This document shows positions 6,629 through 56,561 of a stretch of DNA of 64,000 bases, piece after piece; positions within the stretch are counted from its first letter, which is position 1, and each line of letters opens with the position of its first letter. The translations under genes and the position numbers were made by a program. Below the pieces are notes generated by a model. That model was given only the letters and a program-made list of their open reading frames with translations. It was not told the origin of the DNA and did no database searches. The stretch comes from Alteromonas sp. V450 (GTDB lineage Bacteria > Pseudomonadota > Gammaproteobacteria > Enterobacterales > Alteromonadaceae): positions 2,542,001 to 2,606,000 of the forward strand of contig NZ_MODU01000004.1 of assembly GCF_001885075.1 (NCBI RefSeq), given 5' to 3'.

Positions 6629-7555
6629 TTACAACGATTGTCTGACAAATAATCTATAAGTATTCGCGTCTACAATTGCACCTGGGTGTTGAATTACAAA
6701 ACCAGCACATTTTGACGCTTTAATAACACTCTCGTAAGCATTATTACTTTTTAAATAGGCGCCTAAAAAAACACCGTTAAACGCATCTCCTGCCGATGTC
6801 GTATCTACCACATTACTCACTGGAGTAAGCGTCACTTGTGAAGTATTCCCTTGTTCATCTACAAGTGTTACCGCTTCACTACCATTCTTAATTACAAGCT
6901 GTTTAAATTTAAAAGGAGCGAGAAACCTAACTACTTCCTGTACTGTGCTAAAACCATAAAGAAAATTAAAATCTTCCACGCCAGGAAGGGTAATATCTGC
7001 TAGGTCAAACGCCCTTTCGTAAATAGCAAGTACATCGTCTCGCCCCTTCCATAAGGCCGGCCTATGGTTAATATCAAAAACGATAGTCGCTCCTGACTCT
7101 TTCAATCTATTAACCAGTGAAAAGAACTCATTTAGCTCATATTGATGCAGCACAGCCAATGTTATGCCTGAGAACAGAATGGCATCCAGGTCTTCCAATG
7201 AAGAAATGTCGTCGGGCTTCAGCAATGACATAAAACATTTAGCTGCAGAATCGTTCCGCCAGTATGTAAAAGAACGTTCTCCCTGATCATCCGTGTATAT
7301 TCTGTAAAGGCCTAGATGCTTTTCGGGGTGGGTAAACAAGAAACGCGCGTCGATTGATTCAGACCGAGTAAACGCCACCATTTCTTGGGAAAGCACGTCT
7401 GCCCCAACGGCACTGATAAAATAACTTTCAAACTCAGGAAACGTTCTCTTTAAATAAACCGCGGAATTAAATGTATCACCCGCAAACCCTTCGCTTAAAA
7501 CACCGTCCACCTTCTTCAGTTCGGCCATACATTCACCGATAAAACCAATTCTCAT
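6629..7555 (-). CDS. kdgK: 2-keto-3-deoxygluconate kinase, PfkB family
   Basis: This 308-residue PfkB-family sugar kinase starts with GECMAEL, the usual beginning of KdgK proteins. It carries the PfkB signature DTTSAGDAFNG near the C-terminus, with the catalytic Asp in SAGDAF. The length matches the family (about 310). It would phosphorylate 2-keto-3-deoxygluconate to KDPG, the substrate of the aldolase encoded directly downstream. The lyase upstream yields unsaturated uronates that become KDG after reduction; the reductase is not in this window. Other PfkB substrates cannot be excluded from sequence alone, but the operon strongly favours KDG. Confidence 0.9.
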   Translation of the reverse strand: MRIGFIGECMAELKKVDGVLSEGFAGDTFNSAVYLKRTFPEFESYFISAVGADVLSQEMVAFTRSESIDARFLFTHPEKHLGLYRIYTDDQGERSFTYWRNDSAAKCFMSLLKPDDISSLEDLDAILFSGITLAVLHQYELNEFFSLVNRLKESGATIVFDINHRPALWKGRDDVLAIYERAFDLADITLPGVEDFNFLYGFSTVQEVVRFLAPFKFKQLVIKNGSEAVTLVDEQGNTSQVTLTPVSNVVDTTSAGDAFNGVFLGAYLKSNNAYESVIKASKCAGFVIQHPGAIVDANTYRLFVRQSL

Positions 7556-7603
7556 ATTCGTCTCGCTTTAATACATACAAATTCAGATAAAAGAGAGTAG
7601 TCA

Positions 7604-9823
7604 CTACTGACAGCCACATTCAGCTCCTTGAGATAGGAAATCGATAACTTTAGGGTCTGGTGTATTTTCAAAAAGATTTTTAACGATAGATGTCTTTGGT
7701 TCGCCCACAGTATGCTCAATCACAACCTTGGCACTGCTCTTAATATCGTTACTTTTTAAAAGCGCCTGTTGAACACCATGAAGAAAAATACTCGCTTTAC
7801 TCTTATTGCGCTTTCCAAGCCCAACCCTCTCAAGTTGGTTTTTGAAAAATGTGACTTTAGGCCCGAATGTGCTTTCGTCTGTACCGCCTCGATATATTAG
7901 CGCTAATGCTCCGTCAACCTGCTCGATATGATTATTGGAAAAGTTGAGTACTTCCACATTGTAGATACCGAGGTCGTCTCTTTCCTTGTCAAATAGGAGT
8001 ATGTTTCCAGTAATATTCGAAAACTCGCTATTTTCAATATTAACCGATGTCGCAAAGCTTCGTGCTCCTGCGGCAAAGAAGTGATAGCTGTGGTTAATAT
8101 TTAGATTCAACACCGACACGTTACGCATGTCGAAACGATAATTAGTCATCATTCCCCATTTCTGTGTTCTCAAGAGAGTATTTCCGGCAGCATCAGGCGC
8201 GTCTTCACCAGACAAGGACAGAAACGCCAGTTTAAGATTGCCATTATCAATAATTTCGAACAGTGCCGTGCGCTGCGGCAATAAAACAACGTTTTCTTGA
8301 CTCACACCTTTAATTGACAATGTTTTGTCGATCACTACTGTTTTCTCTTCGCTGTAATTGCCTTTTTGTAATATCAACGTATCGCCGTCACTTGCTTTAG
8401 CTACCGCATTAAAAAGCGTGTTTACGCCAGGCTCGACAACTATCTCTCTGCCAGAATCAAAAGGGACTTCGTATTGCTTTTTCGCGTACCAAGATGGGCC
8501 AACATCATCTCTACTTAGTGTCACAATGTCGGGAGAAGCCCCAACTTTTCCCACCTCTTGGTCTTCCGATAGCGTTTGCCCAATATTGCTGATCTTTGAG
8601 AAACCCTCTTGAACAGTACTTTCGACACTATAGTTTGCAACATTGTCAGCAAACTTAATTCCTTTTATGTCATCGAAGAAACTCATGGTTATTGGCGCAT
8701 TTTGTGAAAGTAAAAGATTATTTGTGAACTTGCTATTTATAGGTGGGGCCGAACGTTCTTCATCAGCGCCGGCAGCGAACTGAATATGCTCAACATCGAT
8801 AAAAGTATTGTGGTGAATATTGGCACCATCTACTTGATGGTAACGATTTTGCGGCGAATTAGGCACGCCGTTCATTACAGTAAAACCACTTCCAAACCGG
8901 TAACCTGTGAGGGATTTAAATAAGTTGTTTGCTACCTCTTGGTTTGCATTTATAACTCGTACTCCCCCCGTATTGTGTACGCCATTACCTAAAAATACGT
9001 TGTTTGTTACCACGTTGTTGTTACCGTGGCGAAGCGTTAACGTTCCTCTAGATTCGATAAATGTATTGCCATGGATGATATTGCCGCCTGATTTAACACT
9101 GATTATTTCTACCTCGCCGTTACAACGCTCAAAAACATTGTTTTCAACATGTGTAAAAGAGTTCTCGAGCGAATAATGGCTTGTACCTATTCTCAGCGTT
9201 TCACCACCGTTAGAGCCAAGTTCGGGTCGATAGCCGAAATAATTGTGATCAATGAGGTGATGGTTTTCTATACTGCTTTTTGAATTTAAGCGAACTGCCA
9301 ATGTGACGCCACGATTTCGTTTACCCGCTAAATAGGAATGGTCTAATCGATTGTGTTTTCCGTAAAGCGCGACCCAATAATCGTTTTCAAATTTGTCTGG
9401 CTTCGAATAATCTTCAATAACAACTTCCGTTACGCGGGAGTGGTTAGCAATTTCATTTTTATTTATGCGATAGCTTATTACAGCGCCAGAGGGCGAATAG
9501 CCATCTTTGAAAATTAACCCAGATACGACAAGGTGTGCACCGCCCAACGATAAGCTTGATTGCCCTGTTAACAGTACTTTACCTTTTTCCTCGGCACGTA
9601 AAACAATCGGTTTTCCTTCACTGCCTTTTGCACTAAAAATAATTTCAAAGTCTTTATACACGCCGTTTTTCAGCACTATTTCGTCGCCCGGTTCAACCGT
9701 TGCCAGCGCTTTTTCTAACGATGCTTTACTGTCGATGAAGAAGTCTTCTGCCTTGACGAGCGCGCTACACAATAAAAAAATAGCCCCAACAAGTAATCTG
9801 AACTCTATCACACGAACCCTCAT
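7604..9823 (-). CDS. polysaccharide lyase family 6 alginate lyase, exported
   Basis: This 739-residue protein has a Sec signal peptide (hydrophobic LLVGAIFLLCSALV, likely cleavage after VKA) followed by right-handed beta-helix repeats. The PL6 catalytic region is visible: a lysine in EIISVKSGGN and an arginine in GTLTLRHGNNN, with the preceding NGGETLRIG. PL6 contains alginate lyases and chondroitinase B; the length corresponds to the two-helix type. It would cleave alginate by beta-elimination outside the cytoplasm. ATG at 9823 has GGAG seven bases upstream. It is first in the operon with kdgK (48-base gap) and eda, which argues for alginate rather than chondroitin as substrate. No PL7, PL17 or TonB-dependent transporter is in the window. 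Confidence 0.88.
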   Translation of the reverse strand: MRVRVIEFRLLVGAIFLLCSALVKAEDFFIDSKASLEKALATVEPGDEIVLKNGVYKDFEIIFSAKGSEGKPIVLRAEEKGKVLLTGQSSLSLGGAHLVVSGLIFKDGYSPSGAVISYRINKNEIANHSRVTEVVIEDYSKPDKFENDYWVALYGKHNRLDHSYLAGKRNRGVTLAVRLNSKSSIENHHLIDHNYFGYRPELGSNGGETLRIGTSHYSLENSFTHVENNVFERCNGEVEIISVKSGGNIIHGNTFIESRGTLTLRHGNNNVVTNNVFLGNGVHNTGGVRVINANQEVANNLFKSLTGYRFGSGFTVMNGVPNSPQNRYHQVDGANIHHNTFIDVEHIQFAAGADEERSAPPINSKFTNNLLLSQNAPITMSFFDDIKGIKFADNVANYSVESTVQEGFSKISNIGQTLSEDQEVGKVGASPDIVTLSRDDVGPSWYAKKQYEVPFDSGREIVVEPGVNTLFNAVAKASDGDTLILQKGNYSEEKTVVIDKTLSIKGVSQENVVLLPQRTALFEIIDNGNLKLAFLSLSGEDAPDAAGNTLLRTQKWGMMTNYRFDMRNVSVLNLNINHSYHFFAAGARSFATSVNIENSEFSNITGNILLFDKERDDLGIYNVEVLNFSNNHIEQVDGALALIYRGGTDESTFGPKVTFFKNQLERVGLGKRNKSKASIFLHGVQQALLKSNDIKSSAKVVIEHTVGEPKTSIVKNLFENTPDPKVIDFLSQGAECGCQ

Positions 9824-10150
9824 TCACTTCTCCATTACACCTGTAAACAAACGCGAAGTTTTGCCGTTTACGTCCACAAACTTTGCAAATTAGCAACTAT
9901 GCTGTTATTAATTTGTTACCGACCATTGAAATCTAACCAATAGTAAGACCAAAAACAACCTATTTATTTTACCAAATATAATAAATAGGTATTACCAGTG
10001 GTTATTTTGGCGTGAGAATGCGATAAAAAAGCGCTGTGCGACAATGGCTTTGCGCTTAAAATAAGTTCGATATACAATCGTAAGATAAAAAGATATGACC
10101 AATTCCGTTTTCAGCATCGGCATTTAAACAGGCAAACAAGGGCAGTATTT
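9824..10150. promoter_or_regulatory. divergent promoter region with candidate GntR/FadR-type operator
   Basis: This 327-base spacer separates the leftward PL6 operon from the rightward GntR-type regulator. It holds two overlapping perfect palindromes: GGTATTACC at 9988-9996 and ACCAGTGGT at 9994-10002. A further TACC lies at 9970-9973. GGTnnnACC fits the GT-N3-AC core common to operators of the FadR subfamily. The regulator next door is the obvious candidate to bind it. This is inference from position and symmetry. Confidence 0.5.
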
Positions 10151-10882
10151 ATGAAGACTCGTCGTCTTTTCTGGGGCATAGTTGAAAAGTTAGAAGCACT
10201 TATCGACCAAGGTATCTATCCGGAAGGAAGCCGCCTACCCGCCGAGCGCGAACTCGCAGAGACCTACAACGTAAGTCGACCGACCATCAGAGAAGCCATA
10301 ATAGCACTAGAGGTAAGAGAGCGCGTAGAGGTCAAAACCGGCTCAGGCGTTTACGTATTGCGCCAAAAAAAATCCGTCAATCCTGCACAACCTATTAGCG
10401 CATTCGAACTCACTCAAGCAAGAGCGTTAATCGAAGGAGAGGCCGCAGCGCTTGCGGCAGCGACAATTTCAGATGAAGAGCTCGACGCATTAAAACAAAC
10501 GCTAGAAGCAATGCAAACACCAAGTAAGGCTGACGAGGCTGACCAACGGTTTCATCAAATTATTTCCCAAGCCACGAGAAATAACGCAATATTAATTTCA
10601 GTTGAGAACTTGTGGAATTTGCGCCGGACAGTACCGCAAGTTATCGCCGCTTACAGTGACGTTTGCTCTCAAGGCGATGAACAACGATTACGAGAACACA
10701 CGCTTATTTATGACGCCATTGCAAACAAGGACTCTGCGGGAGCACGTCGTGCCATGCATCAACATTTCAACCGCCTTATCAACGCCCTTTTTGATGCAAG
10801 CGAGGCAAAGGCTCTGGAAGAAATAAAGCGCAAAACCGACGAAACGCGCGGCTTATACTCAATAACACACCTACGTCAGTAG
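10151..10882 (+). CDS. GntR-family (FadR subfamily, FCD domain) transcriptional regulator
   Basis: This 243-residue regulator has an N-terminal winged helix-turn-helix (about 5-75) with the GntR signature: GSRLPAERELAETYNVSRPT, then IREAIIALE. The C-terminal FCD ligand domain (about 90-230) has a metal/ligand-type histidine in RFHQII and later HTLIYDAI and MHQHF. FadR-subfamily proteins usually sense sugar acids or organic acids. It is divergent from the PL6-kdgK-eda operon, so local repression relieved by KDG or a related uronate is likely, though the ligand is not visible in sequence. A strong hairpin terminator follows the gene. Confidence 0.9.
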   Translation: MKTRRLFWGIVEKLEALIDQGIYPEGSRLPAERELAETYNVSRPTIREAIIALEVRERVEVKTGSGVYVLRQKKSVNPAQPISAFELTQARALIEGEAAALAAATISDEELDALKQTLEAMQTPSKADEADQRFHQIISQATRNNAILISVENLWNLRRTVPQVIAAYSDVCSQGDEQRLREHTLIYDAIANKDSAGARRAMHQHFNRLINALFDASEAKALEEIKRKTDETRGLYSITHLRQ

Positions 10883-10905
10883 TCGATTTTTTATCCCACT
10901 AAAAA

Positions 10906-10933
10906 AAACAGGCTTCTTGAAAGAAGCCTGTTT
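10906..10933 (+). terminator. intrinsic terminator after GntR-type regulator
   Basis: A 13-bp perfect stem, AAACAGGCTTCTT/AAGAAGCCTGTTT, has a two-base loop. It begins 23 bases after the stop codon. A run of A residues precedes it, so it could work in both directions. Confidence 0.85.
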
Positions 10934-11515
10934 GCTTTGCGTAGGGTACTCTTTGAGTAACTGTTTTTATTCTATGCTTCAATGTGTGGGCACACCGTTT
11001 AACGTTTCAATTAGACTGTTCAGATGCTAAACAAAACGAATCGCAGGTACACCCAACACGGTCGATAAGCCTGTCAACTCTGCTTAAGTAAGCAGCAGAA
11101 AACGTCTTAATACTACAACCTGGCCTTACACAATGTCAACCAATTAAACTTACCAATTTTTACGTGTAACGATATTTACTCATTCATACGACAAATTTTT
11201 TGATTCTAAAATTCACAATAACATACTGCTTTTAGAAACAAGGCAATTTTAAAAATAAGAATAAAATCAATTAAATCAATAATATAAATTCAGATCGAGT
11301 ATTAATCTCTATTACTACTTATCCAAGCATCAAAAAATATTTCTTTCTGAGATGGCTATTTTGGTTTTACCAATATCAAAATATAGAAATCAAGTAACAG
11401 TGCCATTAGAAATTGCTTTACGAAGTTTGTTATAAAAGATACAAAGCGCTCAGCTTTAACAATACTGTTTTTAGTATCTACGCTATACCTGCGTAATTAA
11501 ATTAGTGAATAAAAC
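10934..11515. other. long A+T-rich gene-free stretch upstream of MscS gene
   Basis: About 580 bases contain no convincing ORF or RNA gene. A hairpin CTGCTTA-AG-TAAGCAG lies at 11080-11095. From about 11140 to 11480 the sequence is strongly A+T rich, which would suit a promoter region for the channel gene at 11516. I see nothing else that can be named. Confidence 0.4.
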
Positions 11516-12838
11516 ATGAATGTTGATCATTTAAACAACCAGTTTCAAGAAAAGTTAGCGCTTATTAAAGCATCGGTAATATCAGATAGTTTCGTTATAC
11601 AACTGATAACCATTGCAACCATTTATTGCATTGCTTTTATTCTTTCGAGACAAGTGAAAAAACCATTTAAGTTCACTCGAGAGAAACCCCAGCAAGGTGC
11701 TCACACACTACATGGTTTTTTATATAATCTGGGAGAAGCGCTTTTTCCTTTGATTACAATCAGCATGTTAAAGCTCACCACTGTACTTGGTGCACAGTTT
11801 CAATTTGACGCTTGGTTACTAGAAATTGCGGTAGTTGTTGCTTTAATGCTGTTTGTAAACTCTCTCATTCTCGGGTTTGTTGAAAACAAGACAATAGCAT
11901 CTTGTATGCGGTGGATTGGCTTACCTATTCTCTTTCTCCACTTAATTGACTTTCTTCCGCTTATCACGACTTCACTGGAATCGATAGCGATATCGGTAGG
12001 CAATGTTGAGATCTCTGCCTATGGCGTAACAAGAGTCATTCTATTTGGTGGTTTGTTATTTTGGCTGGGCAGAAGCTCTAATGCTATCGGACAAGACATT
12101 ATTAGAAACCATAAGTCACTCGATGTATCAACAAAAGAGGTGTTCGCAAAGCTGTTTGAAGTTGCACTTTTCTGTGTAGTATTCCTTTTGCTATTAAACG
12201 TAATGGGTATCAACCTTACAGCACTCGCTGTATTTGGCGGTGCAGTAGGTGTAGGCTTGGGTTTAGGCTTACAGTCAATAGCTTCAAATTTTATTTCAGG
12301 CATTATCATTTTACTCGACAAATCTTTAACGGTGGGAGACTTCGTCGAACTAGAAGACGGACAAAAAGGCATCGTGAGAGAGTTTAAAATGCGATATGCC
12401 GTTTTGGAGACTTACGACGGTAAAGATATCTTGGTACCCAACGAAAAATTCATTAGCTCATTGCTGGTAAATTGGACGCATAAGGACCCCAAACAGCGCT
12501 ACAGAATCGATTTTTCAGTAGCTTACAAAACTGATATTCGCGCCATGGTTGAAATAGTAAAAGAGGCAGTTTCCCAGCACCCTCAAGTCATTAGCGGTGA
12601 GGGAGTACCGTTTGAAGAATTGCCGGACTGCGAGATCGATAGCTTTGGGGACTCTGGTGTTAACATGTTTGTCGAGTTTTGGATGGAAGGCGTAGACGAT
12701 GGAAAGAATCGAGTGGGTGGAGACCTATTATTAACCGTGTTTGAAACACTTCGTGAACACAATATTGAAATCCCCTTCCCTCAAAGAGAGGTGCGTGTAC
12801 TCAATGACGGAATTTCTGTAAGAAACACGACGCCCTAA
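11516..12838 (+). CDS. mechanosensitive ion channel of the MscS family
   Basis: This 440-residue inner-membrane protein has several N-terminal hydrophobic segments (about 25-45, 70-110, 120-160 and 170-190). The pore-lining MscS helix follows, with its Gly/Ala pattern GGAVGVGLGLGLQSIASNF. The beta domain comes next (LDKSLTVGDFVEL, ILVPNEKFISS) and then the cytoplasmic vestibule up to the C-terminus (EIPFPQREV). Such channels open under membrane tension to release solutes on osmotic downshock. It is longer than E. coli MscS (286 residues) because of extra N-terminal transmembrane helices. It stands alone between A+T-rich DNA and a convergent small gene. Confidence 0.9.
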   Translation: MNVDHLNNQFQEKLALIKASVISDSFVIQLITIATIYCIAFILSRQVKKPFKFTREKPQQGAHTLHGFLYNLGEALFPLITISMLKLTTVLGAQFQFDAWLLEIAVVVALMLFVNSLILGFVENKTIASCMRWIGLPILFLHLIDFLPLITTSLESIAISVGNVEISAYGVTRVILFGGLLFWLGRSSNAIGQDIIRNHKSLDVSTKEVFAKLFEVALFCVVFLLLLNVMGINLTALAVFGGAVGVGLGLGLQSIASNFISGIIILLDKSLTVGDFVELEDGQKGIVREFKMRYAVLETYDGKDILVPNEKFISSLLVNWTHKDPKQRYRIDFSVAYKTDIRAMVEIVKEAVSQHPQVISGEGVPFEELPDCEIDSFGDSGVNMFVEFWMEGVDDGKNRVGGDLLLTVFETLREHNIEIPFPQREVRVLNDGISVRNTTP

Positions 12839-12896
12839 CAACTTTTCACTATTAAGTGCTTGTAAACACATGTGCAAGCACTCACTTTTCGCAAGG

Positions 12897-13382
12897 CTAA
12901 AATCGAGCGCGAAGGGTGTCCCATTGCCACTGAGGGCAGTCAAGTGCTAATGCGCTCAGAAACTTTTGGTAGTCCCGATACCCCATCGCGGATGCAACCG
13001 TTTTTAGCTGAGATTTTGCGCGAATGGCCTTCGTTTGAAGTAACTCTAAGCGCTTATCTGCATCACTTTCAAAATTGTCGTCAATAATTAATTTTGCTTT
13101 GTTCGATGCCTGCCATGCTGTTGTCACAAAGCCGAGTAATTTAATGTAAACCTTAACCATTCCCTTTTTTTCAAACACGCCCTCAAATGATGAACCCTGA
13201 AGCATAGTCTTAAAGCTTGCTTCAGTTTCATGTTCAATAAGCGCATTAAAACCATTTAACGATGTTAAAAAATCGCGAAGTAGCAGCAAATGTTTATCAT
13301 CTTGCAAATCATTGTGAGCTAGCGACAGTATATCATCGCTAAGTATTTCCAAATTGATAAGAGCACGCTGCGTTGAAGCCAT
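12897..13382 (-). CDS. hypothetical protein, 161 residues
   Basis: I do not recognise this protein. It is soluble, without signal peptide or membrane segments, and looks mostly helical. Its C-terminus (DCPQWQWDTLRARF) is rich in aromatic residues. The start is uncertain: an ATG at 13382 gives MASTQRALINLEI, and a TTG at 13397 would add five residues. Neither has a clear ribosome-binding site; I prefer the ATG. It lies downstream of katG but behind a strong terminator, so it probably has its own promoter. It converges on the mscS-type gene. Confidence 0.6.
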   Translation of the reverse strand: MASTQRALINLEILSDDILSLAHNDLQDDKHLLLLRDFLTSLNGFNALIEHETEASFKTMLQGSSFEGVFEKKGMVKVYIKLLGFVTTAWQASNKAKLIIDDNFESDADKRLELLQTKAIRAKSQLKTVASAMGYRDYQKFLSALALDCPQWQWDTLRARF

Positions 13383-13450
13383 AATGTTTGTCGACAATAA
13401 CGTTAGAGTAAACTCGAAGTCTACCTAAACAAGAACAGTTTTTCGATGAC

Positions 13451-13490
13451 ATAAAAAACGAGGGCAAAAAGCCCTCGTTTTATGTTTTTA
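13451..13490 (-). terminator. intrinsic terminator after katG (probably bidirectional)
   Basis: The stem CGAGGGC/GCCCTCG (13461-13467 and 13473-13479) is extended by A/T pairs and has a five-A loop. On the minus strand it is followed by six T residues. It lies 23 bases after the katG stop. Confidence 0.88.
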
Positions 13491-13512
13491 GTCTAGCGAC
13501 TTAATCTAGCAT

Positions 13513-15813
13513 TTACTTTGCTAACTGAGCGTTTAGATCATGTCGTAAATCAAATCGATCAAGCGTCATAACTTTTGTCCATGCATCAACAAAGTCTTGG
13601 ACAAAGCGCGCCTTAGCATTATCGTAAGCGTATACCTCTGCTATTGCGCGTAACTCGCTATTTGACCCGAAGACTAAATCTACCGGTGTCCCCGTGTATA
13701 TCACTTCATTTGTCTTGCGGTTAACGCCTTCGTATATAGCAGGGTTATCAGTTTTACGCCACTTGGTCCCCATGTCTAAAAGGTTAACAAAAAAGTCATT
13801 ACTTAATGCGTTAGTGTCATCAGTAAACACACCATGTTTCACGCCATCAACGTTAGCACCAAGTGAACGCATACCTCCTAAAAGAGCAGTCATCTCTGGT
13901 ACTGTAAGATTAAGTTGGTCAGCTTTATCTACCAACATATCAGTAGGAGAGCGATAGCTCTTGTCAGGGTTGTAATAGTTCCTAAATGCGTCAGCTGTTG
14001 GCTCTAACAAAGAAAACGAGTTCACGTCCGTTTGCTCTTGTGTGGCATCTGTGCGCCCTACAACTACAGGTACATCAATGTTTACACCAGCATTAGACGC
14101 CGCTTTCTCAATAGCCGCAGCGCCACCGATAACAATTAAGTCTGCGAGTGATACTTTCTTTTTCGAGAACATGCGCGAATTGTAATCTTCTTGGAGCGCT
14201 TTAAGTTTGGTGACGACTGTCTGCACTGTTTCTGGTTCGTTTACATCCCAACTCATTTGAGGCTCTAGGGCGATACGAGCGCCGTTTGCACCGCCGCGCA
14301 AATCTGATGCTCTAAAACTAGACGCAGCTGCCCATGCTGTCTTAACCAATTGTTGCAACGTTAAACCAGTATCAAGGATGTCTTTTTTAAGTTTCGCTAC
14401 GTCTTTGCTAGAGATATGCTTGTAGTCCGCCTTAGGAACCGGATCTTGCCAAATAAAGCTTTCCTCTGGAACATCAGCCCCTAAGTAACGAGCTTTGGGT
14501 CCCATGTCTCTGTGAGTTAACTTAAACCACGCTTTCGCAAATGCAGTTTGATACTCTTTGGGGTCTGCCAAAAAGCGTTCTGCAATTTTGCGGTACTCAG
14601 GATCGTACTTAAGCGCTAAATCTGCAGTTGTCATTACTGGAGGATTCTTCTTACCCTCAATATGGGCATCAGGTACGGATTTGTGCAGTGATTCATCTGT
14701 AGGGATCCATTGTATAGCACCTGCAGGACTGCGTGTCTGTTTCCACTCAAAACCAAGTAAGTTTTGAAGATATAAGCTGGTCCATTTCGTAGGAAGCTGC
14801 GTCCAAGCCCCTTCAAGACCACTGGTTACTGTGTCTTCCGCATTGCCTTTGCCGCAATTGTTCTTCCAACCTAAACCTTGCTCTTCCAAGCCTGCACCAC
14901 CTGGCTCTGCTTCCAGACAATCAGACGGTTTATGCGCGCCATGCATTTTGCCAAACGTGTGGCCACCTGCGATAAGGGCTACGGTTTCTTCATCATTCAT
15001 TGCCATGCGACCAAACGCTGTACGAATGTTCTTTGCTGAACCTACTGGGTCAGGTACCCCTTTAGGGCCTTCAGGATTAACATAGATTAACCCCATATGC
15101 GTTGCGCCAAGCGGTCGCTGCAATTTTCCGTCTCGTTCTTCGCGATCGCTCGCTAGCATTTCTACTTCTGGACCCCAATAAACCATATCAGGCTCCCAAT
15201 CGTCAGTACGACCACCAGCAAATCCGTAAGTATCAAACCCCATATTTTCCATACCTACGGTTCCCGCAAGTATCATTAAGTCGCCCCACGATAAACTCTC
15301 ACCATATTTTTGCTTAATTGGCCAAAGTAAACGCCGCGCTTTGTCGAGATTTCCATTATCAGGCCAGCTATTTAGGGGGTCAAAACGCATTTGACCGCCA
15401 TCACCACCGCCGCGCCCATCAAGTGTGCGATACGTGCCAGCGCTGTGCCATGAAAGTCGAATAAAGAAAGGTCCGTAGTTACCAAAATCTGCTGGCCACC
15501 AATCTTGAGACGTAGTAAGTAGCGTGTTGATGTCTTGCTTTACTTGCGCTAGGTCGAGCTTTGAAAACGCGTCTGCATAGCTGAAATCCTCACCTAACGG
15601 ATTAGAGCGTTTGTCATGGTCGCGCAATGGTGAAAGATCAAGCTGATCTGGCCACCAAAACTGGTTGCTTTTAGCTTGAAATGCTTTGCTCATACCGGTG
15701 CCCTTTGCACCCGCAGGCTTTGATATTTGATCGTTAGCCCAAGCGCCAGAAGTGCTCAGCGCAACAGCAATAACAGCAGACAATGTGGTTTTTCTCAACC
15801 CGTTCTTAATCAT
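13513..15813 (-). CDS. katG: catalase-peroxidase with Sec signal peptide
   Basis: This 766-residue heme enzyme removes hydrogen peroxide by catalase and peroxidase activity. The N-terminal domain has the distal-site [11 protein letters not shown] (Arg, Trp, His). It also has the Tyr (LIYVNPEGP) and Met (RMAMNDEET) that complete the Trp-Tyr-Met adduct needed for catalase activity, and the proximal His in [11 protein letters not shown]. The degenerate second domain follows from about 440. The start [20 protein letters not shown] followed by TSGAWA is a Sec signal peptide, so this is a periplasmic form like E. coli O157 KatP rather than the usual cytoplasmic KatG. It is monocistronic with a terminator behind it and a possible OxyR-type site upstream. 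Confidence 0.95.
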
Positions 15814-51760: not shown

Positions 51761-52816
51761 CTACTTCTCAACTTCATTGCTTTTTTGAAATTGGCTTACC
51801 TCGCGCTGCGCACTTTCTACCGCGTCGAGTGCGTTTAAAAGCAAATTAGGATCCGGATTTTTTCCCGTACCATTCTGACTCAAATACCTTCGCCAAATTC
51901 GGCCACCCGCTTGCCCTTGATAGAGTCCTAAAATATGGCGTGCTGCGTGCCAAGGCTTAAAATATGGATCATCTTGTCGCTCTATATATTGTTGCATTTG
52001 AATCACAATTTCGCGGCGCGAAAGGCTCTGTGCATTGGAATCTCCAAATACGTCCTTATCTACGCAAGACATGATGTATGGATTAGCATAGACCTCTCTG
52101 CCTACCATTACGCCGTCAACATATTGCAACTGACGTTGTGTATCTGCCAGCGTTTTTATCCCGCCATTAATGCTTATTGATAACTCAGGGCGCGCCTGCT
52201 TCAACTTGTGGACCCGGGGATAATTCAAAGGTGGTATTTCACGATTTTCTTTCGGGCTTAGTCCCTGTAGCCAGGCTTTTCTGGCATGAACAATAAAAGT
52301 ATCACACCCCGCATCTGCAACTATATCGATGAAGCGAGCAAAGTCCTCATCTTCGTCCATATCGTCAATCCCAATTCGGCACTTCACGGTGACAGGAATA
52401 TCTACCGAAGCCTGCATGGCTTTAACGCAACGTGCTACCACTTCTGGCTGTGCCATCAAACATGCACCAAAGCTGCCGTTCTTAACCCTATCACTGGGGC
52501 AACCTACGTTAATGTTCACTTCATCATAACCGCGTGCTTGAGATAACTCTGCACACTTTGCCATGTCAGTAGGATCACTCCCACCCAGCTGAACCGCTAC
52601 AGGGTGTTCCTCTTGGTTAAAACCTAAATAGTCACCTTTACCATATATAATCGCGCCGGTCGTCACCATTTCCGTATAGAGAAGCGTATGCTTAGACATT
52701 AATCGCAAAAAATAACGACAGTGCCTGTCTGTCCAATCCAGCATTGGTGCCACCGAGAAGCGCCTGTCGATAGCGGGCTTAACAGAACTCTCATTTAAAA
52801 CTTTAATATCAGGCAC
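51761..52816 (-). CDS. dusA: tRNA-dihydrouridine(20/20a) synthase
   Basis: The 351-residue FMN enzyme reduces uridines 20 and 20a in the tRNA D-loop. The N-terminal SVAPMLDWTDRHCRYF, VAVQLGGSDP, EVNINVGCPSDRV and the catalytic Cys near 119 in GSFGACLM are all DusA hallmarks, as is SINGGIKT. The length is typical. The 5' end of dusA is a known attachment site for integrative elements, and here a fragment resembling an integrase N-terminus lies 140 bases upstream in divergent orientation. The dusA reading frame itself looks intact. Confidence 0.95.
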   Translation of the reverse strand: MPDIKVLNESSVKPAIDRRFSVAPMLDWTDRHCRYFLRLMSKHTLLYTEMVTTGAIIYGKGDYLGFNQEEHPVAVQLGGSDPTDMAKCAELSQARGYDEVNINVGCPSDRVKNGSFGACLMAQPEVVARCVKAMQASVDIPVTVKCRIGIDDMDEDEDFARFIDIVADAGCDTFIVHARKAWLQGLSPKENREIPPLNYPRVHKLKQARPELSISINGGIKTLADTQRQLQYVDGVMVGREVYANPYIMSCVDKDVFGDSNAQSLSRREIVIQMQQYIERQDDPYFKPWHAARHILGLYQGQAGGRIWRRYLSQNGTGKNPDPNLLLNALDAVESAQREVSQFQKSNEVEK

Positions 52817-52955
52817 TTACAGCATTCCTCAAAATAATCACTAATGCCAAAAGCATTATACTTTTCACGGTTTTTAGTCCCCATTAAGGGAACGCGGTGC
52901 CCAAATGGTGGAACATTTCCCGCTTTGGCGCACCCTCTACAATGGGTTAGATAAG

Positions 52956-53039
52956 ATGGCTAATATTAACATAACTAAGGGGACGAGAAAAAATGGAGTT
53001 TCCTATACTGCAAGAGGTAGACAGAGATTAGACCGATAG
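52956..53039 (+). pseudogene. probable integrase N-terminal fragment next to dusA
   Basis: A short ORF of 27 residues runs ATG to TAG and encodes MANINITKGTRKNGVSYTAR followed by GRQRLDR. The beginning resembles the N-terminal arm-binding segment of tyrosine integrases that start MA-x-I-x-x-R-x-R-K-N/D-G-x-x-SYTARVR. It is upstream of and divergent from dusA, the usual place of integrases of dusA-inserted elements. The similarity ends at the SYTAR motif, so it looks like a truncated relic. It is short, so chance resemblance remains possible. Confidence 0.5.
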
Positions 53040-53044
53040 TACAC

Positions 53045-53368
53045 CTATACTCTCTCAACGCCGTCATCGAACGTAGCTTTATACAATGCTTCTTCTCTGT
53101 CGTTATAAATATAATAGATATCTGAAAAAGAAGTTGGTGTTCCATTCGCTATAGAAGCTTTTTCTCTTAAAAATGCTATTGCCAGCTCTAGTTGTTCAAA
53201 TTCAGCAATAAAATAATCGTTATGATCATATTGATCATACCCCAATACTCGATACTTTCCTGATGTTGCTTTCCTTGTATACCGGTCGATCACATCGGCA
53301 TTGCTTTCCTTATTAGGAATCAATTTTTCCTCATACGTTGAAACACAAAGCCAACAATTCTCATGCAT
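53045..53368 (-). CDS. hypothetical protein, 107 residues
   Basis: I do not recognise this protein. It starts MHENCWLCVSTYEEK, has two Cys near the N-terminus and is rich in Tyr, Asp and Glu, without membrane segments or a signal peptide. The middle (RVLGYDQYDHNDYFIAEF) and the later helix (LELAIAFLREKASI) suggest a small alpha/beta fold. It is the last gene leftward from the HExxH enzyme, 148 bases downstream of it, and abuts the integrase-like fragment. It may be an accessory or immunity gene of the peptide locus; this is inference from position only. Confidence 0.6.
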   Translation of the reverse strand: MHENCWLCVSTYEEKLIPNKESNADVIDRYTRKATSGKYRVLGYDQYDHNDYFIAEFEQLELAIAFLREKASIANGTPTSFSDIYYIYNDREEALYKATFDDGVERV

Positions 53369-53516
53369 TTTATGTTACTAACAACTATATATTTGATAAA
53401 AAACGTAGTTAACAGAAGATGGATTGATAGGTGAAAAATTTTTTTGGTAAATACTTTGCAGTCGCCCTACCTAGACTAATACATAGAGAATTTTGGCTGA
53501 AGCACTAATTGCGTTT

Positions 53517-54506
53517 TTAATTTTCTAAAAACGGCTTCATGTAGTCATGGCAACGCTTCATTACTTCAGCGCCAATCGTCGACAGTTCACCCTGTTCCTT
53601 TATGATCTGATAACCATGCTTGTAAGCCTCAATATTATCTTTACACGCTTGGTTCGCATAGCGGCGACTTGCTTGATCTAATTTTGGATAAGCCAATAAC
53701 AGCTGCATTGCGAGAAACATGCGAGCAGTTACAAATGTTGCATGATAGATGCCCTCCATGGGCCGCGGATCCGGCCTCAATGGGGAGCTGTAAGCCGCTT
53801 GTTCATCGTTAAGCGTTAACCTACCTTCAGACGCGTAACCGAATAAGAGCATGTGTGCCGATTCATGTGCCAACACTTCTATAATTTGTGCTTGTGTCTC
53901 GTATGATTTGACACTAATAAAGAGGCCCCCCCACATCATATACGAAGATCCTCCCTCAAACTCCACGTCTGTTCCTTCGACGGATTCAACCAGAATAATT
54001 TGCGAAACTAACGAGTAAAATTCATTGGATAATTCGGGCATTACCTTTTCCATGGTAAGCAATACATCTTTAAGGCGCTGCTCAAAATGCACACTGGTTT
54101 CAACGTCAGGCGTTTTGATCAAAAACGCAGTGCCATCTTCAATATTCATGAGAGAGGACAGCCGCTCGCCTTCTCCCATAAAACAAGGAGCTTCTAGGGT
54201 GACAATTTGGGGCATGTCTAATGCTATGGGACGCTGCCTCCCTAAAAGGGCAAACAGGTCTTCAGTTTTTTCTTCGGATTGCCCAGTTAATGCAAATACT
54301 AGGTAAGTATATAGTGCGAAGGTTAACGCAGAGAATTTCTGCCCAGATTTAAGCGCCTCAATAAGTGTTTGAATGCTTTTTTCGTGCTCTCCCATCTCAT
54401 TGGAAGTTTGCGTATAAATGTATTGCAAGCTTGTTGCTAGATTCCCTCTCATAATGCGGTCTAGCGAATCGCCGCGCTGAGAACAAGGCAAAAAACTACA
54501 ATCCAT
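53517..54506 (-). CDS. HExxH-type peptide-modification enzyme (TIGR04267-like)
   Basis: The 329-residue soluble protein has HESAH (His214, His218) inside EVLAHESAHMLLFGY. About 30 residues later comes YSSPLRPDPRPMEGIYHATF. An HExxH followed by a W/P-R-x-DPRP-x-x-G motif is the hallmark of the TIGR04267 group of RiPP-associated proteins, which I recall are now thought to be alpha-ketoglutarate/iron peptide beta-hydroxylases rather than proteases. It lies directly downstream of the small precursor-like gene, behind a terminator. I prefer the ATG at 54506; the TTG at 54524 lies in the T-tract of that terminator. Its likely substrate is the 43-residue peptide encoded upstream; that is inference. 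Confidence 0.8.
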   Translation of the reverse strand: MDCSFLPCSQRGDSLDRIMRGNLATSLQYIYTQTSNEMGEHEKSIQTLIEALKSGQKFSALTFALYTYLVFALTGQSEEKTEDLFALLGRQRPIALDMPQIVTLEAPCFMGEGERLSSLMNIEDGTAFLIKTPDVETSVHFEQRLKDVLLTMEKVMPELSNEFYSLVSQIILVESVEGTDVEFEGGSSYMMWGGLFISVKSYETQAQIIEVLAHESAHMLLFGYASEGRLTLNDEQAAYSSPLRPDPRPMEGIYHATFVTARMFLAMQLLLAYPKLDQASRRYANQACKDNIEAYKHGYQIIKEQGELSTIGAEVMKRCHDYMKPFLEN

Positions 54507-54522
54507 ATCGGCACCCAAAAAC

Positions 54523-54545
54523 AAAAAAGCAACCGAATGGTTGCC
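54523..54545 (-). terminator. intrinsic terminator between precursor peptide and HExxH gene
   Basis: Stem GCAACC/GGTTGC (54529-54534 and 54539-54544) with a four-base loop. On the minus strand TTTTTTGTTTTT follows. It lies 29 bases after the peptide stop. Partial read-through would give more precursor than enzyme, as is common in RiPP operons. Confidence 0.85.
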
Positions 54546-54573
54546 TTTGATAAGAACAAGAAAAAAACAATAA

Positions 54574-54705
54574 TTATTGTGGTTTAACTAACTTGATCCC
54601 CAGCTTAGGAGAAGCAGCTGTAGACACTTTTACTTGTTTTTTGTCTGATGACAAGTTGAAGCCATACAATTTAGATACATCCAATTTAACAACGTTCTTT
54701 TTCAT
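54574..54705 (-). CDS. putative RiPP precursor peptide, 43 residues
   Basis: This small gene encodes a 43-residue peptide. It begins MKKNVVKLDVSKLYGFNLSS, continues DKKQVKV and ends STAASPKLGIKLVKPQ. The ATG at 54705 is well supported by AGAGGG seven bases upstream. The first half (leader-like) is Lys/Leu rich and predicted helical; the last 16 residues (core-like) are Ser/Thr/Ala/Pro/Lys rich and lack Cys, Asp and Glu. It sits between the ATP-grasp gene (47-base gap) and the HExxH gene, with its own terminator. Size, position, start signal and terminator all suit a RiPP precursor. The residues modified are not known. Confidence 0.75.
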   Translation of the reverse strand: MKKNVVKLDVSKLYGFNLSSDKKQVKVSTAASPKLGIKLVKPQ

Positions 54706-54752
54706 AATTCCCTCTTTACTTGCGTTTTTGATAATGAATGCTTTACACCTTA

Positions 54753-56561
54753 TTAAGCTTCAATAGGATTATCACTTACAAAAGTGTCCGTCAATAATTT
54801 TATAGCCGTTTTTGTCGTCGCGTTTAGGTCATTTAGCATGTCAATGTTGTGATTAATCACGCGAACCTGTTTTACTCTTTTAAACGGAATACCTGTCTCT
54901 AAGAAGTCGGCCGTTTGAATAACCACAATCATGGCTTCTACGTCTGTATTAGCAAAGAGTGCTGTACAATGCTCATGTAAAGTCTTCGCGGTGCTACGAT
55001 ATTGCTCGCCCTTTTCATCCAAGATACACGAATGGTTCGTAAGGAATACGCGGCTCAATTTTCTTGTCTCTTCATGAAATTTAATGGCTTGCTGCCATGC
55101 TTGATCATCACCAATAAAAACGTAAATCGGTAATTGGGAATCTATTAGGCCCAAAGAATCTAGGTACTTATAGTGATAATCATTGGCGTAAGGCATAGCC
55201 ACATTACCAAGGTGTTGAGAAAAGTTAACTTCGTTTATCTTGGCTCCATTTTCATACCAAGGTACGGTAATATCTTTCGTTAAAAGATCAATGCCCACCG
55301 AATGGAGTCTGCATAATTTACGAACTCGTTGAGCTAGTCTAATATTCTCGGGGTGAATAGATTGAGTGAAACTTTCTATGACGCCTCCATCGGCAATACT
55401 CTGGATAGCTCGCAAAGGAACACGCTCCCCCTCTTTGGGGATACTGTCCATTTCAAAACCCGCCAAACGAATATATTTCAAGGCTTCACTATCCTTCGGG
55501 AAAGGTCTCAATCTCAACCAAGGAGCTTTGGCGCTTTCAGTCTTGTTTGCTAAATCAATGAGTTCGGATATGGTGAGTGTTCCGTCACCTTCTATTGATT
55601 TGGGCATTCGTTTGCTTACCAGCAACAGTTCATCACCGGCAAGCGCTACGCGGTGAACAAAACCTTCTAGATGCTCTTCAATAAGAATATTGTTAGAAAA
55701 AGTTTTAGCCTTAACATATGCGTCAACCAGTGACTGTTTATCAGTAATATTTGTAGTCACCCCCTCGCTTCGCTCCCTGTCTGCAGGCTTTATGACGACT
55801 GGAAAACCGATAATATTCGCCTTCGTGAGAAGGTCTGCCTCACTATTAACAATTAAATGTTTGGGTACTGGCAAATGGGCCGAGCTCAAAAGTTTTGATG
55901 TTTGTAGTTTGTTCCTGGTTAATATAGAACCTAAAGCGGAATCTTGTTCTACAGCAGAACTTTGCACTAACGTTGCATGTCTTCCCCACCCCAACTGATA
56001 GGTTTTTTGAGCAACACACTGAAAAGGAACATCCTGAATATAGGCTTTATGCAATATTGGAATGTTTGAGTCGGCACTACCGTATATTTTTTTTACAGGC
56101 TTAAGCAGATTATCGTGAACGGCGTCTAGTAATTTTGCAAGTTGCTGTTCGTTTTGAAACATTATTAAGTGCAAAATGTTGGCGGCAACAGTATAAAACT
56201 GGTTGCGAACCTCTGAAGCCACAAATGGCAAATCTGGAATAAGACAACAACAAACAATTTTTTCTGGATCCTTTTTACGTTTTTCCACCTCGAATTTAAG
56301 TAACTTACCAGAGTCGAAAACCGGCAGACCAGCAGATCTGTGAAGCGCACTTGCCAACGTTAAAAATCGCTCGACCAAGGCTTCGTGAAAAGGGCTTGTA
56401 GCGTTCAATTCAAACGTGTCAGTCACACCGAATTTTTTAACCAGCGTATTATCCAGACCAGCTACATCCACTTTGCTATTACATATTATGGTAAATTCAG
56501 CCTCTACCACTGGTTGTTTTAGACTCGGCACATATCCTTTATTTAAATAGCGTGTAGACAT
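54753..56561 (-). CDS. cyanophycin-synthetase-like ATP-grasp ligase with degenerate Mur-ligase domain
   Basis: The 602-residue protein follows the architecture of cyanophycin synthetase (CphA). An N-terminal domain (about 1-180) precedes QLGWGRHATLVQSSAVEQ and an ATP-grasp core: GFPVVIKPADRERSEGVT (about 250-268), ILIEEHLEGFVHRVALAG, KSIEGDGTLTISELI, then NIRLAQRVRKL, GIDLLTKDI and INEVNFSQHLG (near 440). In CphA a Mur-ligase half follows. Here about 120 residues remain and the P-loop is missing, although segments such as TDVEAMIVVIQTADFLETGI still match. CphA's ATP-grasp half adds Asp to a peptide C-terminus. This protein may therefore ligate an amino acid to, or crosslink, the adjacent peptide; the actual reaction is unknown. 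Confidence 0.82.
   Translation of the reverse strand: MSTRYLNKGYVPSLKQPVVEAEFTIICNSKVDVAGLDNTLVKKFGVTDTFELNATSPFHEALVERFLTLASALHRSAGLPVFDSGKLLKFEVEKRKKDPEKIVCCCLIPDLPFVASEVRNQFYTVAANILHLIMFQNEQQLAKLLDAVHDNLLKPVKKIYGSADSNIPILHKAYIQDVPFQCVAQKTYQLGWGRHATLVQSSAVEQDSALGSILTRNKLQTSKLLSSAHLPVPKHLIVNSEADLLTKANIIGFPVVIKPADRERSEGVTTNITDKQSLVDAYVKAKTFSNNILIEEHLEGFVHRVALAGDELLLVSKRMPKSIEGDGTLTISELIDLANKTESAKAPWLRLRPFPKDSEALKYIRLAGFEMDSIPKEGERVPLRAIQSIADGGVIESFTQSIHPENIRLAQRVRKLCRLHSVGIDLLTKDITVPWYENGAKINEVNFSQHLGNVAMPYANDYHYKYLDSLGLIDSQLPIYVFIGDDQAWQQAIKFHEETRKLSRVFLTNHSCILDEKGEQYRSTAKTLHEHCTALFANTDVEAMIVVIQTADFLETGIPFKRVKQVRVINHNIDMLNDLNATTKTAIKLLTDTFVSDNPIEA

Follow-up and report, generated by a model that had tools for sequence, protein, structure and literature searches.

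Enzymes of the alpha-ketoglutarate-dependent HExxH type (aKG-HExxH) are reported to hydroxylate the precursors of ribosomally synthesized and post-translationally modified peptides (RiPPs): ChlH acts on His and Asp, PflC on Gln and PesO on Pro (PMC12636437, PMC13060819; here and below, statements on published systems refer to the accessible parts of the sources). The reported gene clusters pair the enzyme with radical S-adenosylmethionine, multinuclear non-heme iron-dependent oxidative (MNIO), nitroreductase or Asn-synthetase-like enzymes (PMC12636437, PMC13060819). Here we describe a cassette of another composition in a 64,000-nucleotide stretch of Alteromonas sp. V450 (contig NZ_MODU01000004.1, positions 2,542,001 to 2,606,000), hereafter the window, in which an HExxH protein is encoded together with a 43-residue peptide and an ATP-grasp ligase resembling the cyanophycin synthetase CphA. 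In most of its relatives, too, the partner is an ATP-grasp or AMP-binding ligase, and the leader and core of the peptide differ from those of the aKG-HExxH systems in the accessible reports.

Other described systems share single features with this cassette. In corallotide biosynthesis (graspetide group 15; CorA/CorB/CorC), an ATP-grasp enzyme and a 2-oxoglutarate (2OG)/Fe oxygenase act on Lys in repeats (PMC13097080), which is also what is predicted here; corallotide, however, depends on a graspetide synthetase (TIGR04187) and a PF13640 oxygenase and contains a Lys-Asp isopeptide, whereas here the window ligase is CphA-like, the oxygenase is of the HExxH type and some cores are free of acidic residues. 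In the std cluster, which encodes a homocitrulline RiPP, a Lys side chain is carbamoylated and then hydroxylated by an iron enzyme (PMC13174530); unlike the window cassette, it uses a NodU-like carbamoyltransferase and an MNIO with a different precursor. PGM1, an ATP-grasp ligase of the pheganomycin pathway, is reported to attach a non-ribosomal amino acid to a peptide of ribosomal origin (PMC8939145), and its system, compared here by description only, has other partner enzymes and another peptide. We propose that the cassette is a RiPP unit in which the hydroxylase and the ligase act on the peptide core and a carboxylic acid is coupled to the lysines or hydroxylysines of its K-x-G motifs, a reading to which we give a chance only just short of even.

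The HExxH protein (53517-54506, minus strand; 329 residues from its ATG, the listed open reading frame (ORF) opening at a TTG at 54524) scored 75 bits against TIGR04267, the aKG-HExxH-type peptide beta-hydroxylase family (cut-off 40), and all nine of its 24 relatives that were scored also exceeded the cut-off. H214, E215, H218, S241, R244, D246, R248 and H255 are invariant in a 10-row alignment, in which P242 and P247 show one departure each; when aligned to ChlH, the window protein has the HExxH, the distal His and the SPxRxDxRP motif. An AlphaFold2 model built from five sequences reached a predicted local distance difference test score (pLDDT) of 92.6, and Foldseek matched it to the HExxH domain of ChlB (8s5f) with E-values of 2.6e-11 to 6.3e-11, template modeling scores (query) of 0.65-0.70 and root-mean-square deviations of 4.8-8.7. 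The protein is thus assigned by its sequence to TIGR04267, with a predicted alpha-ketoglutarate-dependent hydroxylase activity, and by its model to the ChlH fold, which agrees with the type named in an earlier note on this DNA. It resembles ChlH, BpmH, PflC/PosC and PesO (TIGR04267/IPR026337) in its score, its predicted fold, its HExxH and SPxRxDxRP...GxxHA motif and the position of its gene beside a short precursor gene.

Within the genus, the enzyme was found in one of 59 genomes, the window's own, and in one of 147 genomes of the family (single-protein query, E 0.001). With an alignment query at E 1e-15, it was found in five of 368 genomes of the class, in seven of 398 from the phylum and in 11 of the 295 that make up the set for the family of G689, the genome that carries locus L005; all of these sets except that of the genus are samples, which overlap in part. 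On plasmids, four of 72,556 records matched the enzyme at 22-28% identity, and 17 pattern stretches in the viral contigs scanned with the HExxH alignment included no relative. The named relatives are from a Neptuniibacter metagenome-assembled genome (L002, 53% identity), the Solemya velum gill symbiont (L003, 39%), Devosia aurantiaca (L004, 36%) and Thalassovita mediterranea (L005, 31%). The comparisons below use 25 separate HExxH loci, including the window, in stretches of 6 to 15 kb.

The 43-residue peptide (54574-54705, minus strand) begins with the leader MKKNVVKLDVSKLYGF, whose pattern K-L-D-x-S-K-L-Y-G-F is a form of the family leader D-x-x-K-L-L/Y-G-F. Ligase, peptide and HExxH genes follow one another in identical order in L002 and L003, whose peptides MSKDIKLDPSKLYGFNLTKEKEAIRVSSAASAKIGVPKKVSKPATK and MNDSKSINLDLSKLYGYKIVEEEVKEKCIASKIGGGGKVPPAPATILPAKIGLGKIGVKTM, encoded at the same place, are 57% and 38% identical to that of the window. 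The same or a closely similar leader peptide lies directly 5' of the HExxH gene in 20 of the 25 loci (the window, L002-L005, L012-L014, L016, L038-L040 and L057-L064), with weaker candidates in three others (L041, elsewhere in the stretch, L042 and L065) and no precursor found in two (L015, where the contig extends only 147 bases 5' of the gene, and L066). A strict version of the leader motif occurs in 21 of the 101 short same-strand ORFs upstream of the HExxH genes, representing 17 of the 25 loci, versus two of 3440 other short ORFs; one of these two belongs to L060, where it is the fifth precursor in a tandem row of five. This motif was composed after the peptides had been inspected and misses L014, L015, L016, L041, L042, L058, L065 and L066, for six of which the candidates came from looser patterns or visual inspection and carry less weight. 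Searched with the precursor profile, of which the window peptide is a row, the window's own genome yielded that peptide at E 4.6e-11 and a next-best match at 0.059, and thus no convincing second precursor. Besides its five precursors, the L060 locus (7250-11618) encodes a single HExxH enzyme and a pair of small ATP-grasp-like proteins.

A RiPP gene cluster is expected to hold a short precursor gene, with a leader that is conserved, next to genes for modifying enzymes, and this arrangement recurs across these homologous loci. The earlier note had taken the window for a RiPP-like locus and had made this depend on conservation of the peptide and on linkage of the HExxH and ATP-grasp genes in other genomes; the peptide counts above bear out the first, and the second holds for an ATP-grasp or ATP-grasp-like gene in 19 of the 25 loci, with an AMP-binding ligase in four and no ligase in two. 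That the peptide is an enzyme substrate is well supported. The counter-proposal that unrelated genes happen to sit beside dusA, with a chance short ORF between them, could draw on the variability of the slot beside dusA among genus mates, described below, but it is already contradicted by the conserved three-gene order in L002 and L003 and by the leader counts (21 of 101 against two of 3440 ORFs), and we give it almost no credence.

What follows the leader is marked by the motif K-x-G. A set of 19 cores, each from a different locus, contains 52 K-x-G where 16.1 (sd 3.4) are expected, and none of 2000 shuffles reaches 52, whereas K-G (7 versus 16.5), K-x-x-G (20 versus 15.8), R-x-G (3 versus 4.6) and K-x-x-x-G are not enriched. 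The set omits L041 and L065a, because K-x-G was part of their search pattern, as well as L042, L065b, L039 and four extra L060 precursors, which are weak, second in their locus or near-copies. In the larger set of 28 rows, K-x-G occurs 67 times against 21.1 expected and is present in 26 of the 28 precursors; the Lys is most often followed by Ile or Val (30 of the 67 sites), and four positions further on the commonest residue is again Lys (38 of 67). Some cores are built of repeats, GAKIGKAP three times in L013 and LLG(D/A)KTGSKVTSP twice in L063. The motif is found beside each kind of ligase described below, in five of five cores for the CphA-like, 16 of 17 for the small ATP-grasp-like and four of four for the AMP-binding enzymes, two of the last having been found through the K-x-G pattern. 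The window peptide has six Lys after its leader, and its core has one Asp, near the leader.

The window ligase (54753-56561, minus strand, 602 residues, first in transcription order) matches the NCBIfam cyanophycin synthetase profile with 205 bits over residues 165-446 (cut-off 877) and the CphA structure 7lgn in the PDB with an E-value of 1.1e-38. It comprises the N-terminal and ATP-grasp regions homologous to those of CphA1 and CphA2, with the ATP-grasp end motif INEVN at 442, followed by a short C-terminal region. Unlike CphA1/CphA2, it has neither a Mur-ligase P-loop (GxxGK[TS]) nor HxxEH in a motif scan, and its score lies far below the family cut-off, on which grounds we rejected the idea that it is a cyanophycin synthetase. 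Its best NCBIfam matches are the CphA, NAGGN and GshF families; a structure model of the ATP-grasp protein, from three sequences, was too poor to use (pLDDT 50.5).

In 23 of the 25 loci, a predicted carboxylate-activating enzyme is encoded next to the HExxH gene, separated from it by precursor genes at most. It is CphA-like in five (the window, L002, L003, L013 and L064), an ATP-grasp-like protein of about 320 residues in 14 (L004, L005, L012, L014-L016, L038, L039, L057-L060, L062 and L063) and an AMP-binding ligase in four (L040, L041, L065 and L066); eight of the 23 match by construction, being rows of the CphA-like (window, L002, L003) or small (L004, L005, L014-L016) profile. The small protein matched no Pfam family in the two members scanned; the label ATP-grasp-like reflects a weak similarity to D-Ala-D-Ala ligase at the profile level (E 0.00024) and a YEINTNP end motif recognized by eye. 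Mapped on a tree built from the 25 HExxH proteins, the ligase states, four in all, require five changes, compared with a minimum of three and a shuffled average of 10.4; with several long branches and 10 of 22 inner branches weak, the tree does not settle the order of ligase exchange. The earlier note had treated the CphA-like ligase as the system's own enzyme, and its homology and linkage stand. Because it is present in only five of the 25 loci, as one of three interchangeable types, the family is, by its sequences, defined by the leader, the K-x-G core and the HExxH enzyme, and not by the CphA-like ligase.

Several of these loci have features of their own. The CphA-like ligase beside the GAKIGKAP precursor in L013 (4592-6414, minus strand) reads as two adjacent pieces and is possibly decayed, and L002, some 4 kb downstream of its HExxH gene, encodes a second CphA-related ATP-grasp protein (11965-14133, plus strand; 722 residues, profile score 150 bits). 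L040 (4767-8506) has a precursor with two LGRLFSKRG repeats, an HExxH enzyme and a fusion of AMP-binding, carrier and thioesterase domains, and looks like a mixed RiPP and non-ribosomal peptide synthetase-like unit. In L015 (148-3130), the HExxH enzyme and the small ATP-grasp are accompanied by a glycosyltransferase-like protein with a PqqD-looking C-terminus (by eye), suggestive of glycosylation in some clusters, and in L014 (3589-4882) two proteins beside the small ATP-grasp match TIGR04282 and TIGR04283 (arsenosugar-type glycosyltransferase) above the cut-off.

In the mechanism that we propose, the peptide would be recognized through its leader K-L-D-x-S-K-L-Y-G-F, the HExxH enzyme, as an Fe(II)/alpha-ketoglutarate oxygenase, would hydroxylate the core at or beside the K-x-G lysines, and the ATP-grasp enzyme would activate a carboxylic acid, which may be an amino acid or a different small acid, and couple it to these lysines or hydroxylysines. 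In the relatives, the joining step would fall to the small ATP-grasp-like protein or to an AMP-binding ligase, once fused to carrier and thioesterase domains. That both enzymes act on the peptide is very likely, and hydroxylation of the core is likely. Joining of an activated acid to the lysine side chain is suggested by the alternation of three carboxylate-activating kinds beside the same peptide and hydroxylase, and by Lys being the constant residue of the core; we consider the attachment to lysine itself tentative, at somewhat less than an even chance.

The ATP-grasp enzyme might instead form an intramolecular isopeptide or ester of the graspetide kind, between a core Lys, hydroxylated by the HExxH enzyme, and an Asp/Glu side chain or the C-terminal carboxylate. 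Corallotide is a precedent, having a Lys-Asp isopeptide, Lys delta-hydroxylation (by a different oxygenase) and five repeated motifs (PMC13097080), and some of the present cores, those of L013 and L063, are repetitive as well. Such a crosslink is nevertheless made less likely by the three of 28 cores, in L004, L012 and L016, that have no Asp or Glu; there, a leader Asp, which L012 lacks as well, or the C-terminus could still provide a partner. In one clade, moreover, AMP-binding ligases stand in for the ATP-grasp enzyme. No graspetide-synthetase family was present among the best 25 of the 41 NCBIfam matches of the window ligase, or for four small ATP-grasps; TIGR04184 is such an ATP-grasp family beside TIGR04187. 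We therefore dropped graspetide membership, there being no synthetase family among these matches and the Asp/Glu acceptor failing across the family, and regard the intramolecular crosslink as unlikely; for the window alone, the single core Asp could be a graspetide-type acceptor.

The ligase is homologous to the G domain of CphA, where Asp is added to the main chain (PMC9262961), and it might work in this or a RimK-like manner, activating the C-terminal carboxylate of the peptide and adding one or more amino acids there, with the HExxH enzyme hydroxylating the core. The C-terminal ends that were compared show no common pattern, which makes such an extension less likely, and it is the internal K-x-G that recurs; we consider this reading improbable. 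A ligase working like PGM1, which reportedly joins its amino acid at the N-terminus of the peptide, would act after leader removal and place a small amino acid on the N-terminus thus exposed, not on lysine side chains. This likeness is one of description only and leaves the repeated internal K-x-G without explanation, and we find it very improbable.

Linkage was also examined from the side of the ligases. Of the 295 genomes of the G689 family, the HExxH enzyme is encoded in 11, the small ATP-grasp in 11 and both in seven (hypergeometric 3e-9), one of the seven, G689 itself, having given a row to both profiles. The CphA-like profile, applied at 1e-30, matched in 26 of 312 genomes of the class, and 18 of its 32 places lie in open frames of at least 760 residues, the size expected of ordinary cyanophycin synthetases, judged by length only. 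Both ligase families also have members without the HExxH enzyme or the peptide and hence do other work as well. Methyltransferase-like proteins adjoin some of the HExxH-free small ATP-grasps (of two that were scored, one was above and one below the Pfam cut-off), and the small ATP-grasp-like proteins in L117-L121, near methyltransferase-like genes and others that look, by eye, glycosyltransferase- or tricarboxylate-transporter-like, probably serve another pathway. The CphA-like ligase of G307 adjoins a PF13640 2OG-Fe(II) oxygenase (49 bits) with no recognizable peptide, and that of G392 an ornithine-cyclodeaminase-like protein. The pairing of a CphA-like ATP-grasp of this subfamily with a PF13640 2OG-Fe(II) oxygenase, without HExxH or recognizable peptide (L097, 5613-8267), perhaps reflects similar chemistry with a different oxygenase. 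Such members, one of the CphA-like ones standing beside a PF13640 oxygenase, would suit the explanation that the ligase makes a small molecule and leaves the peptide to the HExxH enzyme as its sole modifier. Three ligase types alternating beside the same kind of peptide and enzyme are, however, hard to explain without a common task, and we consider this division of labor improbable, marginally more so than the C-terminal extension.

Several observations weigh against a cassette that couples acids to K-x-G lysines. In the accessible reports, the targets of HExxH enzymes are His, Asp, Phe, Gln and Pro, not Lys (PMC12636437, PMC13060819). The window core has a single K-x-G (KLG), and L016 and L042 have no exact K-x-G; in L042 and L061, no ligase was found in the stretch read. 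Five of the 13 small ATP-grasp places (G999:C2, G1111, G1126, G949 and G944) have neither HExxH nor leader-motif peptide in the region read, and the CphA-like matches in G307 (496 bits) and G392 (450 bits) have no recognizable peptide and are in genomes where the class survey gave no HExxH match. Finally, no exporter and no leader peptidase were found among the neighbors scanned for families, the farther genes being outside that scan.

The signals around the window genes are consistent with unequal expression. Between the precursor and hydroxylase genes lies an intrinsic terminator (54548-54525, minus strand) with a 10-pair stem, a T-run and a 40-nt fold of -12.4 kcal/mol. The terminator scan as a whole gave five sites versus 3.2 (sd 1.8) in shuffles, a count that by itself is no proof, and the closest relative, L002, has a similar hairpin and T-run at the same place. 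Among the eight precursor/hydroxylase gaps examined in the 25 loci, seven fold at -9.7 kcal/mol or below within 40 nt, four of them also with a T-run, in a comparison made without a shuffle control. The terminator is probably an attenuator, and the peptide, encoded in front of it, would be made in excess. RiPP systems usually express the precursor highly and the enzymes weakly, and the gene order and the intergenic hairpin would fit such a pattern. By eye, Shine-Dalgarno-like sequences precede the peptide ATG (AGAGGGA) and the ligase gene (AAAGGA), with none clear for the HExxH gene; promoter matches were at chance level (11 versus 10.5 expected).

The surroundings of the cassette vary. The ligase, peptide, terminator, HExxH gene and nearby dusA (51761-52816; Pfam Dus, 294 bits) lie as the earlier note had placed them. 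The 107-residue ORF downstream of the HExxH gene (53045-53368, minus strand), which it had counted in the locus, has no relative in L002-L005 (best E 0.87) and no family above the cut-off in NCBIfam and Pfam scans, and we dropped it from the cassette. In three of four genus mates read (G100, G129 and G068), dusA and coiled-coil/OmpA genes flank cargo other than the cassette, and in the fourth (G024) dusA alone was found in the stretch read; the cassette thus occupies a variable slot. The dusA 5' end is a known island target (PMC4482086). A horizontal origin was not upheld by base composition, since the cassette G+C of 0.414 is ordinary, 24 of 122 three-kb windows being as low. A short ORF beside dusA (52905-53039, plus strand; MANINITKGTRKNGVSYTAR...) also occurs in a genus mate (L043, 8186-8404, minus strand); its interpretation as the truncated start of a dusA-island integrase, from a resemblance seen by eye, was discarded, as Pfam gives it no support.

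As for novelty, no description of HExxH and ATP-grasp enzymes with such a peptide was recognized in the full-text literature, judged mostly by title and abstract and with subscription journals largely outside, in line with the earlier note, which knew of no class with this combination. The accessible part of a graspetide survey does not contain the words HExxH, cyanophycin or CphA and places two zincin-superfamily peptidases, which may belong to the HExxH type, beside branch 2 ATP-grasps (PMC8939145). Both the RiPP logic and the hydroxylase family are known, and the leader, the core and the ligase pairing are, as far as we found, apparently undescribed. We suggest, with rather more doubt than confidence, that the loci form a new RiPP class with a D-x-x-K-L-L/Y-G-F leader and a (K-x-G-x)n core, whose lysines, either hydroxylated themselves or next to residues that are, subsequently receive an acyl or aminoacyl group from one of the three ligase kinds.

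The clusters are compact, often consisting of a precursor, a hydroxylase and a ligase, and the precursor can be read from the sequence, so that the chemistry is testable by co-expression. The exchange of three ligase types around one leader and core also provides a natural experiment for learning which component of a RiPP system determines its product. If the lysines are indeed coupled to a carboxylic acid, ATP-grasp and AMP-binding enzymes would here acylate lysines under the guidance of a leader, the nearest chemistry in the accessible literature being that of corallotide, of PGM1, which joins an acid to a peptide, and of the homocitrulline pathway. If the loci do constitute a new class, they would exemplify the convergent recruitment of ligases to one peptide modification, with a comb-like peptide decorated on its side chains as the product.

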